NCBI GenBank assembly: GCA_015272515.1
Contig: JACYLN010000024.1
Span: 1-64,000, forward strand
Direction: 5' to 3'
DNA from: Leptolyngbyaceae cyanobacterium C42_A2020_001
GTDB lineage: Bacteria > Cyanobacteriota > Cyanobacteriia > Leptolyngbyales > Leptolyngbyaceae
DNA length: 64,000 nt
Shown here: piece after piece, positions 15,255 to 48,431 of the stretch
How positions within the stretch are numbered: position 1 is the first letter of the stretch
Layout of the letters: every line of letters starts with the position of its first letter
Translations under genes and position numbers: made by a program
Notes under the pieces: generated by a model
The model's input: only the letters and a program-made list of their open reading frames with translations
Told to the model about the DNA's origin: nothing
Databases searched by the model: none

Positions 15255-16202
15255 ATGCCAAACCTAAAATTTATTCGCGACCGAATTCAGTCGGTCAAAA
15301 ATACGAAAAAGATTACGGAAGCCATGCGACTGGTTGCGGCTGCAAAAGTGCGTCGGGCACAGGAACAAGTGATTGCAACCCGTCCATTTGCAGATAGGCT
15401 GGCTCAGGTGCTTTACGGCTTACAAGCTCGGTTGCGGTTTGAAGATGCAAATTTACCCTTGCTACGCAAGCGTGATGTGAAAACAGTCGGGATTCTGGTA
15501 ATTTCTGGCGATCGCGGCTTATGTGGTGCCTACAACTCCAACGTGATTCGTCGAGCTGAGAACCGAGCCAAAGAACTCAAAGCTGAAGGGATTGATTACC
15601 GTTTTGTGATTGTTGGTCGTAAAGCGGCTCAATACTTCCAGCGTCGTGAGCAGCCAATTGAAGCCGTTTTCTCTGGATTAGAGCAAGTTCCTACGGCCTC
15701 CGAAGCATCCAAAATTGCCGATACCCTGCTGGAACTGTTTTTGTCTGAAACAGTTGATAAAGTTGAGTTAATTTACACTCGCTTTGTGTCGTTGATTAGC
15801 TCCCGTCCAGTAGTTCAAACCCTGTTGCCGCTCGATCCACAAGGGTTGGAAGTAGCAGATGACGAAATCTTCCGCTTAACTACTCGTGGCGGGCAATTTG
15901 AAGTTACACGAGAGAAAGTTGCGGCTCCTACGCAGAACTTCCCGAAAGACATGATCTTCGAGCAAGATCCGGTGCAAATTTTGGATGCTCTGTTGCCGCT
16001 TTACCTCAACAACCAGTTGCTGCGAGCATTGCAAGAATCGTCTGCCAGTGAGTTGGCAGCTCGGATGACGGCAATGAGCAGCGCCAGCGACAACGCCAAA
16101 GAACTGATTTCTAGCCTCACGCTGTCTTACAACAAAGCACGTCAGGCAGCGATTACTCAAGAAATTCTGGAAGTCGTTGGCGGTGCAGAAGCGTTGAAAT
16201 AG
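15255..16202 (+). CDS. atpG: F1 ATP synthase subunit gamma
   Basis: Central rotor shaft of F1, 315 residues. The N-terminal helix has [11 protein letters not shown]-like residues ([19 protein letters not shown]) and the C-terminal helix ends with [20 protein letters not shown], both diagnostic. The protein keeps the cyanobacterial insertion of about 35 residues in the middle (about 195-235) and lacks the two regulatory cysteines of the plant chloroplast gamma, as usual for cyanobacteria. It is the last gene of the operon, followed by a terminator. Cyanobacterial name: atpC. Confidence 0.97.
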
Positions 16203-16225
16203 CCATTCCTAACTATCATTTCCTC

Positions 16226-16256
16226 AAAAGCGTCTGATCATCAGGCGCTTTTTTGT
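16226..16256 (+). terminator. Terminator of the atp operon
   Basis: AAGCGTCTGA pairs with TCAGGCGCTT (one G.U) around a small loop and is followed by a run of T residues, 24 bases after the gamma stop. Confidence 0.85.
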
Positions 16257-16451
16257 TGTCGCATTGATCAAGCAAAAGGGAGAGGCGATCGCATCAGGGG
16301 TTTGAATGGAGTGTGCAGGAGCAATAAGTGTCGGGTTTAGATCCTCAACCCAACCTACTAGATTGGGCGATCTGCTGAAAATATACAGAGAGATTCTCGC
16401 GAATCAGCTTAGACGGCATATTATGCGGAAATAATCGGCATAAGTAGTAAT

Positions 16452-16521
16452 TTGGGATCTTAGGCAGAATGATTCAGCCTAACTGTCCCTATTGGGATCT
16501 TAGGCGGAAAAATTCAGTCTA
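16452..16521. repeat. Tandem pair of 30-base palindromic repeats
   Basis: TTGGGATCTTAGGC plus about 16 further bases occurs twice with a 40-base period (16452-16481 and 16492-16521). The first copy contains a near-perfect dyad, TTAGGCAGAAT / ATTCAGCCTAA; the second is degenerate. It lies beyond the 3' end of the phosphatase gene. The rest of the 392-base gap from 16203 shows nothing beyond the atp terminator. Confidence 0.6.
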
Positions 16522-16527
16522 TTAATA

Positions 16528-16600
16528 GTTGTGCTGCTTAGTTGGTCGGTGGGGACAGTAGTTTGAATCGTATTGGTTGGCGCTCAGTATCAGGCTAGGT
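16528..16600 (+). other. Possible cassette-start sequence, related to 17330-17411
   Basis: GTTGTGC followed by TGC..AGT.. and TCGGTGGGGACAGTAGTTTGAA resembles the sequence that begins at the R' box of the attC-like site at 17330 (GTTATGC, then TCGGTTGGGACAGTAGCTTGAA). The shared blocks start at the point where an attC site would be cut. No L boxes are seen upstream, so if this was an attC border it is incomplete. Confidence 0.35.
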
Positions 16601-17140
16601 CAGCTTGTTTCTGAAGTGATTACACTCATCCAGTAGAGTATTGAGTTCCGCAGCTACTTTCCAAGGATTTCGACCTTTGAATGGGGCTGCGATTACAGCT
16701 TCGTAAGGATTTCTCCCAGTTTGCTTGACGGCTACGATCGCTGATTTGGTTGAGAATCCACGTCCAGCTATGAGCCATGCCGCTAAAACGTGTCCTGTGC
16801 GCCCAATTCCGCTGGAGCAATGAACAACCACTTTCTCATTCTGTTGGTTAGCGATGGCTAAAAACGGCAAAATCCGGTGAGCAAGAATTTCGGGGGTAGC
16901 AAGGTTAAAATCCTTAATCGGTGCCCAACAAACTTGGTCGAGTCCGAAGACTTGTCGATAAAAGCCAAGCAAATCTGGATAGCGAGTTAGCTGAGTTTCG
17001 GGCAATAAACAGCAGACACGCTGAATACCTTGATTTTGCATAAAATTGATCCACTCCCTGACTTTTTCGTAAGTGTAGCCAGGTCGAGCAGAACCAAATA
17101 CGATGAGTTCATTTTCTGAAGCCGCAGCAAATTTGAACAT
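16595..17140 (-). CDS. Dual-specificity/tyrosine protein phosphatase
   Basis: A 181-residue cysteine-dependent phosphatase. The P-loop HCSSGIGRTGHVLAAWL (about residues 106-122) matches HCxxGxxR(S/T). Upstream Asp residues, such as in PIKDFNLATPE, can supply the general acid. It has no signal peptide or membrane helix, so it is cytosolic, and its substrate is unknown. It stands alone on the minus strand between sequences that look like integron cassette borders (16528 and 17247-17337), so it may be a captured cassette gene in reverse orientation; this is inference. Confidence 0.85.
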   Translation of the reverse strand: MFKFAAASENELIVFGSARPGYTYEKVREWINFMQNQGIQRVCCLLPETQLTRYPDLLGFYRQVFGLDQVCWAPIKDFNLATPEILAHRILPFLAIANQQNEKVVVHCSSGIGRTGHVLAAWLIAGRGFSTKSAIVAVKQTGRNPYEAVIAAPFKGRNPWKVAAELNTLLDECNHFRNKLT

Positions 17141-17246
17141 ACTGTATTGTCAAGCTATATCCCAACCAATCTTAACTCTTAAGTTTTCTTATCAGTTCAA
17201 TGTGTCAAAGTGAGGAACGAGTATTCTGTAATAAGGTTGTGTTCGC

Positions 17247-17337
17247 GCATCACAACAACGCTGTTGCAGCGGATTGCCGAGAGCCGTTGGTATTGATGCG
17301 AAGAATATTTGCAGCCGCTGAACAGCAACGTTATGCC
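17247..17337 (+). other. attC-like integron recombination site 1
   Basis: The order R''-L''-L'-R' of an attC site is present. L'' GCTGTTGCAGCGG (17260-17272) pairs with L' CCGCTGAACAGC (17315-17326), leaving one extrahelical G at 17266. AAC spacers flank both arms. R' is GTTATGCC (17330-17337), and a degenerate R'' (GCAT, three bases, AAC) sits at 17247-17256. An unpaired base in L'' is the hallmark that sets strand polarity for the integrase. The expected cut is after G17330. Confidence 0.7.
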
Positions 17338-17416
17338 GCAAGTCCTCGGTTGGGACAGTAGCTTGAAGTTGCTTGTGAGGCGTTCACAATCAGAGTGACT
17401 TAGATTAGGTGGCTGT

Positions 17417-17458
17417 AACGACAATTTGTAACTACAATTGGATATTGTAGCTGTCGTT
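17417..17458. promoter_or_regulatory. Double inverted repeat, probable BrnA operator
   Basis: AACGACA (17417-17423) pairs with TGTCGTT (17452-17458), and the inner CTACAAT (17432-17438) pairs with ATTGTAG (17444-17450). It ends five bases before the brnT start. BrnA antitoxins are known to repress their own promoter, so this is a likely operator. Confidence 0.6.
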
Positions 17459-17463
17459 CAGTT

Positions 17464-17739
17464 ATGGAATATGAATGGGATGAAGCAAAACGTCTTGCTA
17501 ATCTTCGTAAGCACGGAATAGATTTTATCGATGTTCCAACCATGTTTGATGGCGACATTGTAACGGTTGAGGACGATCGTTACGGTTATGGAGAGCGGCG
17601 TTTTGTCACATTCGGTTTGTTGCAAGGGCGAGTGATTGCCGTTGTCCATACAGAACGTGAGGATTGCACCCGTATTATTTCTGCAAGAAAAGCGACGAAA
17701 TATGAACAACGAACCTACTTCGAGCAACTCTCAAACTGA
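17464..17739 (+). CDS. brnT: BrnT-family type II toxin (ribonuclease)
   Basis: A 91-residue protein of the BrnT/DUF497 family, RelE-like RNase toxins that block translation. It begins MEYEWDEAKRLANLRKHGI and shows the family blocks DFIDVPTMFDGD, ERRFVTFG and the C-terminal RIISARKATKYEQ, which holds the conserved basic and His/Tyr-type residues. It is encoded before, and overlaps by 38 bases, the antitoxin gene; toxin-first order is normal for brnTA. The pair lies between two attC-like sites. Toxin-antitoxin pairs are common stabilising cargo in chromosomal integron arrays. Confidence 0.9.
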   Translation: MEYEWDEAKRLANLRKHGIDFIDVPTMFDGDIVTVEDDRYGYGERRFVTFGLLQGRVIAVVHTEREDCTRIISARKATKYEQRTYFEQLSN

Positions 17740-17989
17740 TTGGCAACGTTTGGATGCGATGAGCGATGAAGATATTGATTTATCAGATTGTCCAGAGATT
17801 ACACCAGAAATGTTTGCTAAGGCGGTAGTACGTCGGGGGTTAACTGCTGCAAAAGGCAAGGCACAAGTTACACTCCGCATTGATAGCGATGTGTTGGAGT
17901 GGTTTAAGTCTCAAGGGCGGGGTTATCAAACCCAGATCAATCAGTTACTACGAGCGTATATGGAAGCACATCAAGAAGCTCGCCAATAA
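17702..17989 (+). CDS. brnA: BrnA-family antitoxin
   Basis: A 95-residue antitoxin and repressor. The frame is open upstream, but the ATG at 17702 gives the usual size. The C-terminal half has the ribbon-helix-helix-like block QVTLRIDSDVLEWFKSQG and then GYQTQINQLLRAYMEAH, typical of BrnA/DUF4415. The acidic N-terminal part should wrap the toxin. It is translationally coupled to brnT through a 38-base overlap and probably acts on the inverted repeat at 17417-17458. Confidence 0.9.
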   Translation: MNNEPTSSNSQTDWQRLDAMSDEDIDLSDCPEITPEMFAKAVVRRGLTAAKGKAQVTLRIDSDVLEWFKSQGRGYQTQINQLLRAYMEAHQEARQ

Positions 17990-18016
17990 ATAGCAGGTTA
18001 GTGTTGTGTTTGCAGC

Positions 18017-18103
18017 GGTATAACAAACCCAGTGCAGCGGATTGTCGAGATCGGTTGGTGGAACACAAAGACCATTGACAACCGCAGACTGGGAACGTTA
18101 GCC
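18017..18103 (+). other. attC-like integron recombination site 2
   Basis: L'' CCCAGTGCAGCGG (18028-18040) pairs with L' CCGCAGACTGGG (18082-18093) with one mismatch and one extrahelical G (18034), the same position as in site 1. R'' is GGTATAAC (18017-18024) and R' is GTTAGCC (18097-18103), with AAA and AAC spacers. The segment after L'' (ATTGTCGAGATCGGTTGGT) is nearly the same as in site 1. Both sites point the same way, enclosing a cassette of 767 bases with brnTA. Confidence 0.7.
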
Positions 18104-18277
18104 TGAGAATTTCTGTATAAAAATCCAGAATGGGTAAATAGGCGGATCATTTCTGTGTAACTCCTTCCTTTAAGTGGAAGTTTTTAGGATAGCGGTAAAG
18201 ATTTAGTGAGATGGGTAATGTTTCATATAATCTGCGGGTTGCATCTGAAACAAAAATGACTGAGGGGCGCGATCGCA

Positions 18278-19069
18278 ATGAAGTACTGGTATGAAACGAT
18301 CGCCGTGACTCGACGAATTTTGACGGAACTGTGGCGTAGACGGCGGAGTTTAGTGTTTTGGGCAATGTTTCCGATCGCCGTTCTCCTACTCAATGGGCTG
18401 ATTTTTGCAGAACGCTCTAAAACGGCTTTGCCAGAACCACTGACCTTAGGGCAGGCATTGGAACGGGCGGCTCCGGCAACTCTAGTGGGTGCGGCGTTGT
18501 TCTTTAGTTGCCTGGGTGGCAGTGTGGCAACAGTGGTGGCAGAACGGGAGCAGCGCACCCTGAAACGACTCTTTCTCAGTCCCTTGAGTGGGGTTGCTTA
18601 CTTTTTGGGAATCGGTTTGGCGCATGGGGTGATCGCGATCGGGCAAACGGTTTTAGTGGTTGCAGTTTCTGTGATGTTGGGGGCAACCTTTCAAGGCTCT
18701 CCACTTCTGGCAGGCACTATCATTCTTCTAAGCATCCTGACGTATGTGGGAGTGGGCTTTATTTTGGGGACGCAACTCGCCCGCCGCACGGAAGACATTA
18801 ATACGTTGGTGTCTGCTTTTGGGGTGCCGCTGTTAATTTTAGGTGGGGCGTTTGTGCCAGCATTCATCTTCCCCAAAGTGTTGTTGAATCTGGCGCAATA
18901 CAACCCGGTTTACCACATGAATGAAGCGCTAACAAAGGTGGTTGCAGAAGGCGATGACCTATCCCAAATTGCCCCTCACTTTAGATTTTTGGCAATTTTC
19001 GCTAGTTTGATGGTGGTAGCCGGATGGATTTCTTACCGTCGGATGCTGCAAGTGGAACGGAGACTGTGA
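18278..19069 (+). CDS. ABC-2 type exporter permease
   Basis: Membrane subunit of an ABC exporter, 263 residues and about six membrane segments. The sequence LFFSCLGGSVATVVAEREQRTLKRLFLSPLSG (segment 2 plus the family loop with ERE..TLKRL) matches the ABC-2/DrrB family. It is followed by its likely ATPase 130 bases downstream. The cargo (a lipid, drug or polymer) is not evident. A stretch of GGCAAAGGGCAAAAGGCGCA-type repeat sits between the two genes. Confidence 0.9.
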   Translation: MKYWYETIAVTRRILTELWRRRRSLVFWAMFPIAVLLLNGLIFAERSKTALPEPLTLGQALERAAPATLVGAALFFSCLGGSVATVVAEREQRTLKRLFLSPLSGVAYFLGIGLAHGVIAIGQTVLVVAVSVMLGATFQGSPLLAGTIILLSILTYVGVGFILGTQLARRTEDINTLVSAFGVPLLILGGAFVPAFIFPKVLLNLAQYNPVYHMNEALTKVVAEGDDLSQIAPHFRFLAIFASLMVVAGWISYRRMLQVERRL

Positions 19070-19199
19070 GGCAAAGGCAAAGGGCAAAAGGCGCAAGGCA
19101 ATCAGTAATACAGTGGTTACTAAGTGGCAAGCCACAGTTCGGCGAGTGTGGATGGTGGGGTGTGGCGAATGCAAAAGAAAACCGCTGTAATTGGGCTTG

Positions 19200-20138
19200 A
19201 TGGTAACCGTTAAATGCTACCCAGAGGCAGGTAAGGTGCTGAGAATTGAGCGGCTAAACAAAAGCTATGGGCAACGGTTAGTTCTGCGTGATCTGAATCT
19301 GACGATTGCTGCTGGGCAAATTTATGGGCTACTGGGTCCGAATGGGGCAGGAAAAACTACAACTATTAATATTCTTTGTCACTTACTGCGGGCTGACAGT
19401 GGACTGATTCGCATTAATCACAGTGCAGTTTCGGAACAGACGAAGCGGTTGATCGGGGTTGCGCCTCAAGAAACGCTGCTGTATCGCTACCTGACGTGTG
19501 AAGAAAATTTGCGGTTTTTTGCCAGCCTGTATGGATTCCGAGGGGCAGCCCAAACCCAACGAGTGCAGGCATGTTTAGCTGCCGTGGGGTTAAGCGATCG
19601 CGCCAGCAGTATTGCCGAAACGCTGAGTGGCGGAATGCAAAGACGGTTGAGTATGGCGATCGCGTTGGTGCATCAGCCTAAACTGTTGATTTTGGACGAA
19701 CCAACAACAGGCTTAGATTTAGAAGCTCGGTTTGAGATGTGGCAGTTAATCCGGCAACTTCAACGCGAAGGCATCACCATTTTGCTGACGACGCACCTGC
19801 TAGACGAAGCCGAACGATTGTGCGATCGCATTGGCATTCTCAAAGACGGGCACATTTTGGCAGAAGGCAGTTTGGCAGACTTGCGCCAACACATTCCGGC
19901 TCAAGAAGTTCTTGTGATTCAAACTACTCAAGAAGAAAAAGCGATCGCCCGCGCCCAGGAACTTCAATTTCCCCATCGTCGCTATGGCAGTGATCTTGCT
20001 TTCTGGTTGCCGCAACCGATGGAATTGCAAGAAATCATCACCCTGTTTGATGGCATTCCATTGGATTCAATTTCCCGCCAGCCTGTACGGTTAGAACATA
20101 TTTATCTCGAAATCATGAGAACAATGTTCAATTCTTGA
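19200..20138 (+). CDS. ABC exporter ATP-binding protein
   Basis: ATPase of the DrrA/CcmA-like class, 312 residues. It has Walker A GPNGAGKTT, the signature LSGGMQRRLSMA, Walker B LLILDEPTTGLD and a switch His in TTHLLDEAERL. A C-terminal extension (about 215-312) is typical of partners of ABC-2 permeases. The ATG at 19200 is preferred over the upstream TTG. The gene order is permease first. Its 3' end overlaps convergent tyrA by 11 bases. Confidence 0.92.
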   Translation: MVTVKCYPEAGKVLRIERLNKSYGQRLVLRDLNLTIAAGQIYGLLGPNGAGKTTTINILCHLLRADSGLIRINHSAVSEQTKRLIGVAPQETLLYRYLTCEENLRFFASLYGFRGAAQTQRVQACLAAVGLSDRASSIAETLSGGMQRRLSMAIALVHQPKLLILDEPTTGLDLEARFEMWQLIRQLQREGITILLTTHLLDEAERLCDRIGILKDGHILAEGSLADLRQHIPAQEVLVIQTTQEEKAIARAQELQFPHRRYGSDLAFWLPQPMELQEIITLFDGIPLDSISRQPVRLEHIYLEIMRTMFNS

Positions 20139-48289: not shown

Positions 48290-48418
48290 GATAACGAGGC
48301 AAACGTGAACAGCGATCGCGCAGGGAAAATCCGGTGCTTTGCAGGCTGCAAAAAGTCCGGTGCTGTGCCGCAACTGTAAGCTGAGCAAAACCCAGCAAGC
48401 CAGAATGCCTGCGATCGC
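48290..48418 (+). promoter_or_regulatory. Cobalamin riboswitch
   Basis: The conserved core is present in order: GGGAAAATCCGGTG, AAGTCCGGTGCTGTGCCG, then the B12 box GCCGCAACTGTAAG with the closing AGCCAGAATGCCTGC. It sits upstream of cbiX on the same strand, consistent with repression of cobalt insertion by adenosylcobalamin. The 5' limit is approximate. Confidence 0.9.
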
Positions 48419-48431
48419 CTATTCACTCTAT

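Follow-up and report, generated by a model that had tools for sequence, protein, structure and literature searches.

The 64-kb window, that is, the whole stretch of DNA analysed, carries at positions ~16375 to 18103 an attI-like site followed by two cassettes. We conclude that this locus is most probably what remains of a sedentary chromosomal integron whose integrase gene (intI) was lost. This reading is based on the two attC sites, the homology of the attI-like site, the cassette borders, the extra intergenic DNA and the absence of a local intI.

Organization of the locus

The element, flanked by atpG and a gene for an ABC-2 transporter, is located on the chromosome of a filamentous cyanobacterium, in agreement with the cyanobacterial host proposed in a preliminary description of this DNA. 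The spacing between these two genes is 2076 bp in the source genome, versus 209 bp and 236 bp in two relatives that retain the atpG-ABC gene order (G001 and G015, respectively), and therefore about 1.8 kb of extra DNA is present between them here. The features of the locus are listed in Table 1.

Table 1. Features of the integron-like locus, in window coordinates
Feature	Coordinates	Strand	Details
attI-like site (type A)	16375..16530	+	last three bases are the crossover GTT, 16528-16530
Three palindromic iterons	16421..16525	+	starts at 16421, 16460 and 16500; 39-40 bp period; read directly
Cassette 1, 802 bp	16529..17330	+	from the attI GTT to the attC1 GTT
Cassette 1 ORF, dual-specificity/tyrosine phosphatase-like, 181 aa	16595..17140	-	PF00782, 42 bits (cut-off 33.5)
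attC1	17250..17336	+	covariance model R1, 78.3 bits, E 6.8e-19
Cassette 2, 767 bp, with brnTA	17331..18097	+	from the attC1 GTT to the attC2 GTT
brnT, ribonuclease toxin of the BrnTA family	17464..17739	+	PF04365, 95 bits (cut-off 34.5)
brnA, antitoxin	17702..17989	+	PF14384, 71 bits (cut-off 26.1); overlaps the end of brnT
attC2	18018..18103	+	covariance model R1, 57.5 bits, E 3.5e-13

The preliminary description had recognized a single cassette, which has to be corrected to two because a cassette carrying the phosphatase-like ORF lies between attI and attC1. This ORF is reversed relative to its cassette. Proteins 68-79% identical to the phosphatase are encoded in six genera, and in two of these genera attC sites lie close to the gene. 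The sequence TCGGTKGGGACAGTAG is common to the heads of both cassettes.

The two attC sites

Direct reading of positions 16000-19500 showed that both sites have the same orientation and the same architecture, R''-AAC/AAA spacer-L''-centre-L'-AAC spacer-R'. In each L'', a G is left unpaired at a corresponding position, and so is one further base, an A, which had been overlooked before. Otherwise the preliminary description of the sites was accurate: the two co-oriented sites and the shared unpaired G are real, their coordinates lie within 3 bases of those first given, and the 767 bases said to contain brnT-brnA correspond to the GTT-to-GTT distance, both genes being recognized by their Pfam families.

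The covariance-model check that had been proposed for the sites also gave a positive answer. Other cyanobacterial genomes supplied the training sites, which were picked by the R/L-box pattern at their intI and attI loci, and the model R1 was built from 22 aligned attC sites of related cyanobacteria, neither window site being included. This independent model matched both sites, and a search of the 64-kb window gave no match at E <= 1 beyond attC1 and attC2. The crude R/L-box finder, tried as a site caller, gave numerous false sites, and the covariance model took its place. Within the 22-site alignment, 73 cells of the paired columns were changed on both sides versus 25 +/- 4 in shuffles, and these two-sided changes occurred in 15 of the 22 pairs; 90% of the cells in the R''/R' and L''/L' stems were paired (74% in shuffles), and the covariation score was 0.41 as compared to 0.15. 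Furthermore, attC1 resembles in sequence the tandem attC sites that begin ~630 bp from an intI gene of the relative G015.

The single-stranded DNA folding energies of the two sites were weak (z of -0.5 to -2.4). A chance origin, with attC1 and attC2 being no more than imperfect inverted repeats on either side of brnTA, is hardly credible: the folding energies by themselves are unremarkable, but the R1 E-values (7e-19 and 4e-13), the covariation within the training set and the near-alike sites of an intI-linked array all speak against it. With inverted R''/R' and L''/L' boxes and extrahelical L'' bases present in both, and with the covariation of the training set in support, we classify the two sites as genuine attC sites on comparative grounds. 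An Rfam scan of the window gave no match at either site, and its sole match was a cobalamin riboswitch at 48299-48430 (RF00174, 34.1 bits).

The brnTA cassette and its relatives

The brnT product matches in sequence the solved toxins 7vd7 and BrnT 3u97, and the two genes belong to the BrnT and BrnA families and overlap. By these features the pair is assigned to the BrnTA family of toxin-antitoxin systems. BrnT relatives with 81-90% identity were found in six genomes from five other genera. In G015, brnTA lies between two attC sites of the same orientation, ~40 kb from an intI, and in G014 the same cassette head comes after a different attC. No attC was found near brnTA in G011, G004, G022 and G006, which represent four genera. 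Since some relatives are flanked by attC sites and others are not, the pair apparently travels both as a cassette and by other routes, and as judged from this distribution it is not bound to integrons.

The region preceding brnT (17410-17464), which contains inverted repeats (TTGTAACTACAATTGGATATTGTAGCTGTCG), is conserved among brnTA relatives from other genera and is a candidate operator/promoter of brnTA. Four other BrnT matches are present in the source genome. Three of them (G000:C1:6726-6836, C51:11620-11895 and C147:30084-30212) are partial or have an internal stop codon and are located less than 2 kb from an attC match, that of C147 being weak.

An attI-like site precedes the first cassette

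BLAST of positions 16201-18300 against the intI loci of relatives showed that the segment ahead of cassette 1 is 87% identical to a sequence of G007 that starts 80 bp upstream of its intI; the identity to the intI-upstream regions of G005 and G004 was ~78% over a shorter stretch. The iteron period is likewise found beside intI in G015, G002, G007 and G029 (39-41 bp), and the three iterons of the window would be candidate IntI binding sites. A profile HMM of 16 attI copies, from which the window copy was excluded, matched upstream of intI in 13 of the 16 intI loci; five of the matches were strong and most others weak. When the window copy was aligned with other genomes, the alignment stopped exactly at GTT in 29 of 64 cases, the sequences diverging beyond, as expected where different first cassettes come after the crossover. 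The position expected of an attI, between intI and the first cassette, is thus seen in the intI-bearing relatives, and the end of homology is seen for the window copy itself. We therefore take this segment as attI-like, by homology and position.

A sigma-70 promoter scan found no promoter. Just past attC2, the segment 18099-18167 is similar to a portion of the attI iterons, but inverted (nhmmer, 25.8 bits, E 3e-6). This segment may represent the right side of the original attI, moved from its place, or else a chance occurrence of the palindromic motif.

The integrase and the attC sites elsewhere in the source genome

The absence of an integrase claimed in the preliminary description holds for the 64-kb window, which belongs to contig C70, but not for the genome as a whole: the intI search revealed a single full-length intI, which lies on contig C108 at a distance of 260 bp from the end of that contig. 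Its product matches TIGR02249 with 481.7 bits (cut-off 265) and aligns over residues 4-312 with Vibrio cholerae IntI4 (PDB 2a3v, E 1e-93); the catalytic residues of tyrosine recombinases were aligned with those of IntI4 by eye. The source genome contains 20 attC sites at E < 0.001 on 15 contigs, 18 of them besides those of the window. Because many of these sites are close to contig ends, the assembly has probably broken up the main array, which makes the number of distinct loci uncertain.

The C108 intI is paired with a different attI (type B), relatives of which are also orphaned in the source genome (C36 and C16). Its IntI is only 62-66% identical to the type-A IntIs of relatives, whereas the type-A IntIs (G007, G029 and G005) share 88-94% identity with the G007 protein. 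Since the resident IntI is divergent and has a type-B attI, the cognate integrase of the window attI seems to be gone from the source genome. Two further type-A orphan attI sites are present in this genome, on C118 (L079) and C52 (L080); in both, an attC-like site follows just 59 bp on, which leaves no room for a gene.

Sites of the attC type are less integrase-specific than attI sites, and an IntI encoded at another locus may therefore be able to excise the brnTA cassette in trans. Fresh capture at the window attI by the surviving IntI is doubtful; integrases prefer their cognate attI (PMC3108266).

Orphan attI copies are common in related cyanobacteria

The attI-like sequence recurs in the source genome and in 38 relatives, with up to ten matches per genome. 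We examined 45 copies of types A and B together with their flanks. A complete adjacent intI was found for seven of them, and 38 were without. For these 38 orphans, up to 6 kb were searched on the cassette side: the nearest attC was on the same strand in 26 cases and on the opposite strand in none; 12 had no attC in this range. The orphans had been recognized by their similarity to the attI core, which would bias any comparison of its conservation with that of the intI-proximal half. Fragments of intI persist at several orphans, covering residues 1-109 in G002, 2-28 in G029, 35-68 in G021, 136-164 in G018 and 273-313 in G005. An exact-pattern scan of the genome collection for attI cores yielded 23 loci, all in cyanobacteria: a complete intI was present at two, fragments at five (one of just 22 residues), and the available flanks of the remaining 16 contained none.

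Orphans were also found in genomes assembled into one to three contigs (G002 and G007), and so they are not all assembly artefacts. The intI fragments, together with the many copies devoid of intI, therefore point to decay of intI as a common history among these attI platforms. Tandem near-identical cassettes of ~308 bp, apparently without ORFs, lie by the intI genes of G015 (L109 9153-14693; L020 11772-12472).

Origin of the locus

Loss of intI from a resident integron, which we regard as the most probable origin, would have proceeded as follows. IntI would have recombined the folded bottom strand of a cassette attC with the attI GTT at 16528, and the cassettes would have been gained one by one at attI, the phosphatase cassette with attC1 and the brnTA cassette with attC2. 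A later deletion would have removed intI and ~80 bp of its leader, and the remaining platform would be unable to capture cassettes alone; given an IntI in trans, the brnTA cassette could be excised by recombination between attC1 and attC2. The order of these events, the past activity and any mobilisation in trans are what we infer from the present arrangement. Because no intI debris remains at the window locus, the deletion there is deduced from the sister loci. A rearrangement that separated attI and the cassettes from intI, followed by the loss of intI, would give the same picture.

It is less probable, and on the whole unlikely, that attI and the cassettes arrived here without intI, by homologous recombination or on a transposon, and are perhaps loaded in trans now. 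The many orphan copies per genome would fit such a mobile or rearranged platform, as would the missing intI debris and the two copies of G007, which are placed at different positions and are 97% identical over ~315 bp. However, the left ends of the orphans lie anywhere from ~100 to >300 bp from the crossover, and pieces of intI are included in some, which does not describe a fixed unit. For the same reasons we rejected a precise mobile unit always beginning at 16375, which had been considered because several orphans start there. With a similarly low probability, filamentous cyanobacteria may harbour a dispersed integron, in which many attI platforms lacking intI, each bearing a short array of its own, are still loaded and emptied in trans by a distant chromosomal IntI.

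Still far less likely is that an IntI acting from elsewhere placed the cassettes in a chromosomal site other than attI, so that no integron ever existed here. The source genome does encode a full-length IntI, and off-target insertion is, with intI loss and rearrangement, one of the three proposed origins of clusters of attC sites lacking an integrase (CALINs; PMC8618304). An off-target site (SALIN/attG) would have no attI ahead of the first cassette, and would not carry along 150 bp of attI; at the window locus, the 156-bp attI homologue directly precedes cassette 1, in register with the intI-linked copies. The attI ahead of the cassettes thus argues against off-target insertion and, together with the intI debris at sister loci, points to intI loss.

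Comparison with known systems

Cyanobacterial integrons, their attC sites and CALINs are already known, and CALINs roughly equal complete integrons in number (PMC9024848). We found no prior account of a cyanobacterial attI or of attI-bearing CALINs, a weak negative since the subscription literature was mostly outside the search. The iteron-type attI offers a means of distinguishing CALINs of different origin in cyanobacteria, and IntI-attI specificity could be tested on this defined site outside the well-studied integrons. The many stranded platforms in related cyanobacteria help to explain the source of integrase-less cassette clusters.

The locus resembles a CALIN as defined by IntegronFinder (PMC9024848), with two tandem attC sites, cassettes and no intI nearby, and lacks the intI adjacent to attI that makes an integron complete. 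The CALIN label of the preliminary description is thus appropriate locally, but incomplete: unlike a plain CALIN, the locus retains an attI-like site ahead of its cassettes. IntegronFinder searches attI for class 1 only (PMC9024848). With the sedentary chromosomal integrons of cyanobacteria (intI, PMC2426708; attC model, PMC8352920) it shares the attI and attC families of the intI-bearing loci in related genera, and differs by having no intI and just two cassettes. The BrnTA type II toxin-antitoxin systems show the same gene order, Pfam families and gene overlap; the predicted pair described here differs in being the cargo of an integron cassette. Lastly, the Xanthomonas integrons inactivated by intI loss, exemplified by the two-cassette CALINs of X. 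citri, also have arrays that survived their integrase (PMC12444791). The Xanthomonas platform, however, occupies one ancestral locus (ilvD), whereas the cyanobacterial platforms are many and dispersed, with orphan attI sites that could be identified.
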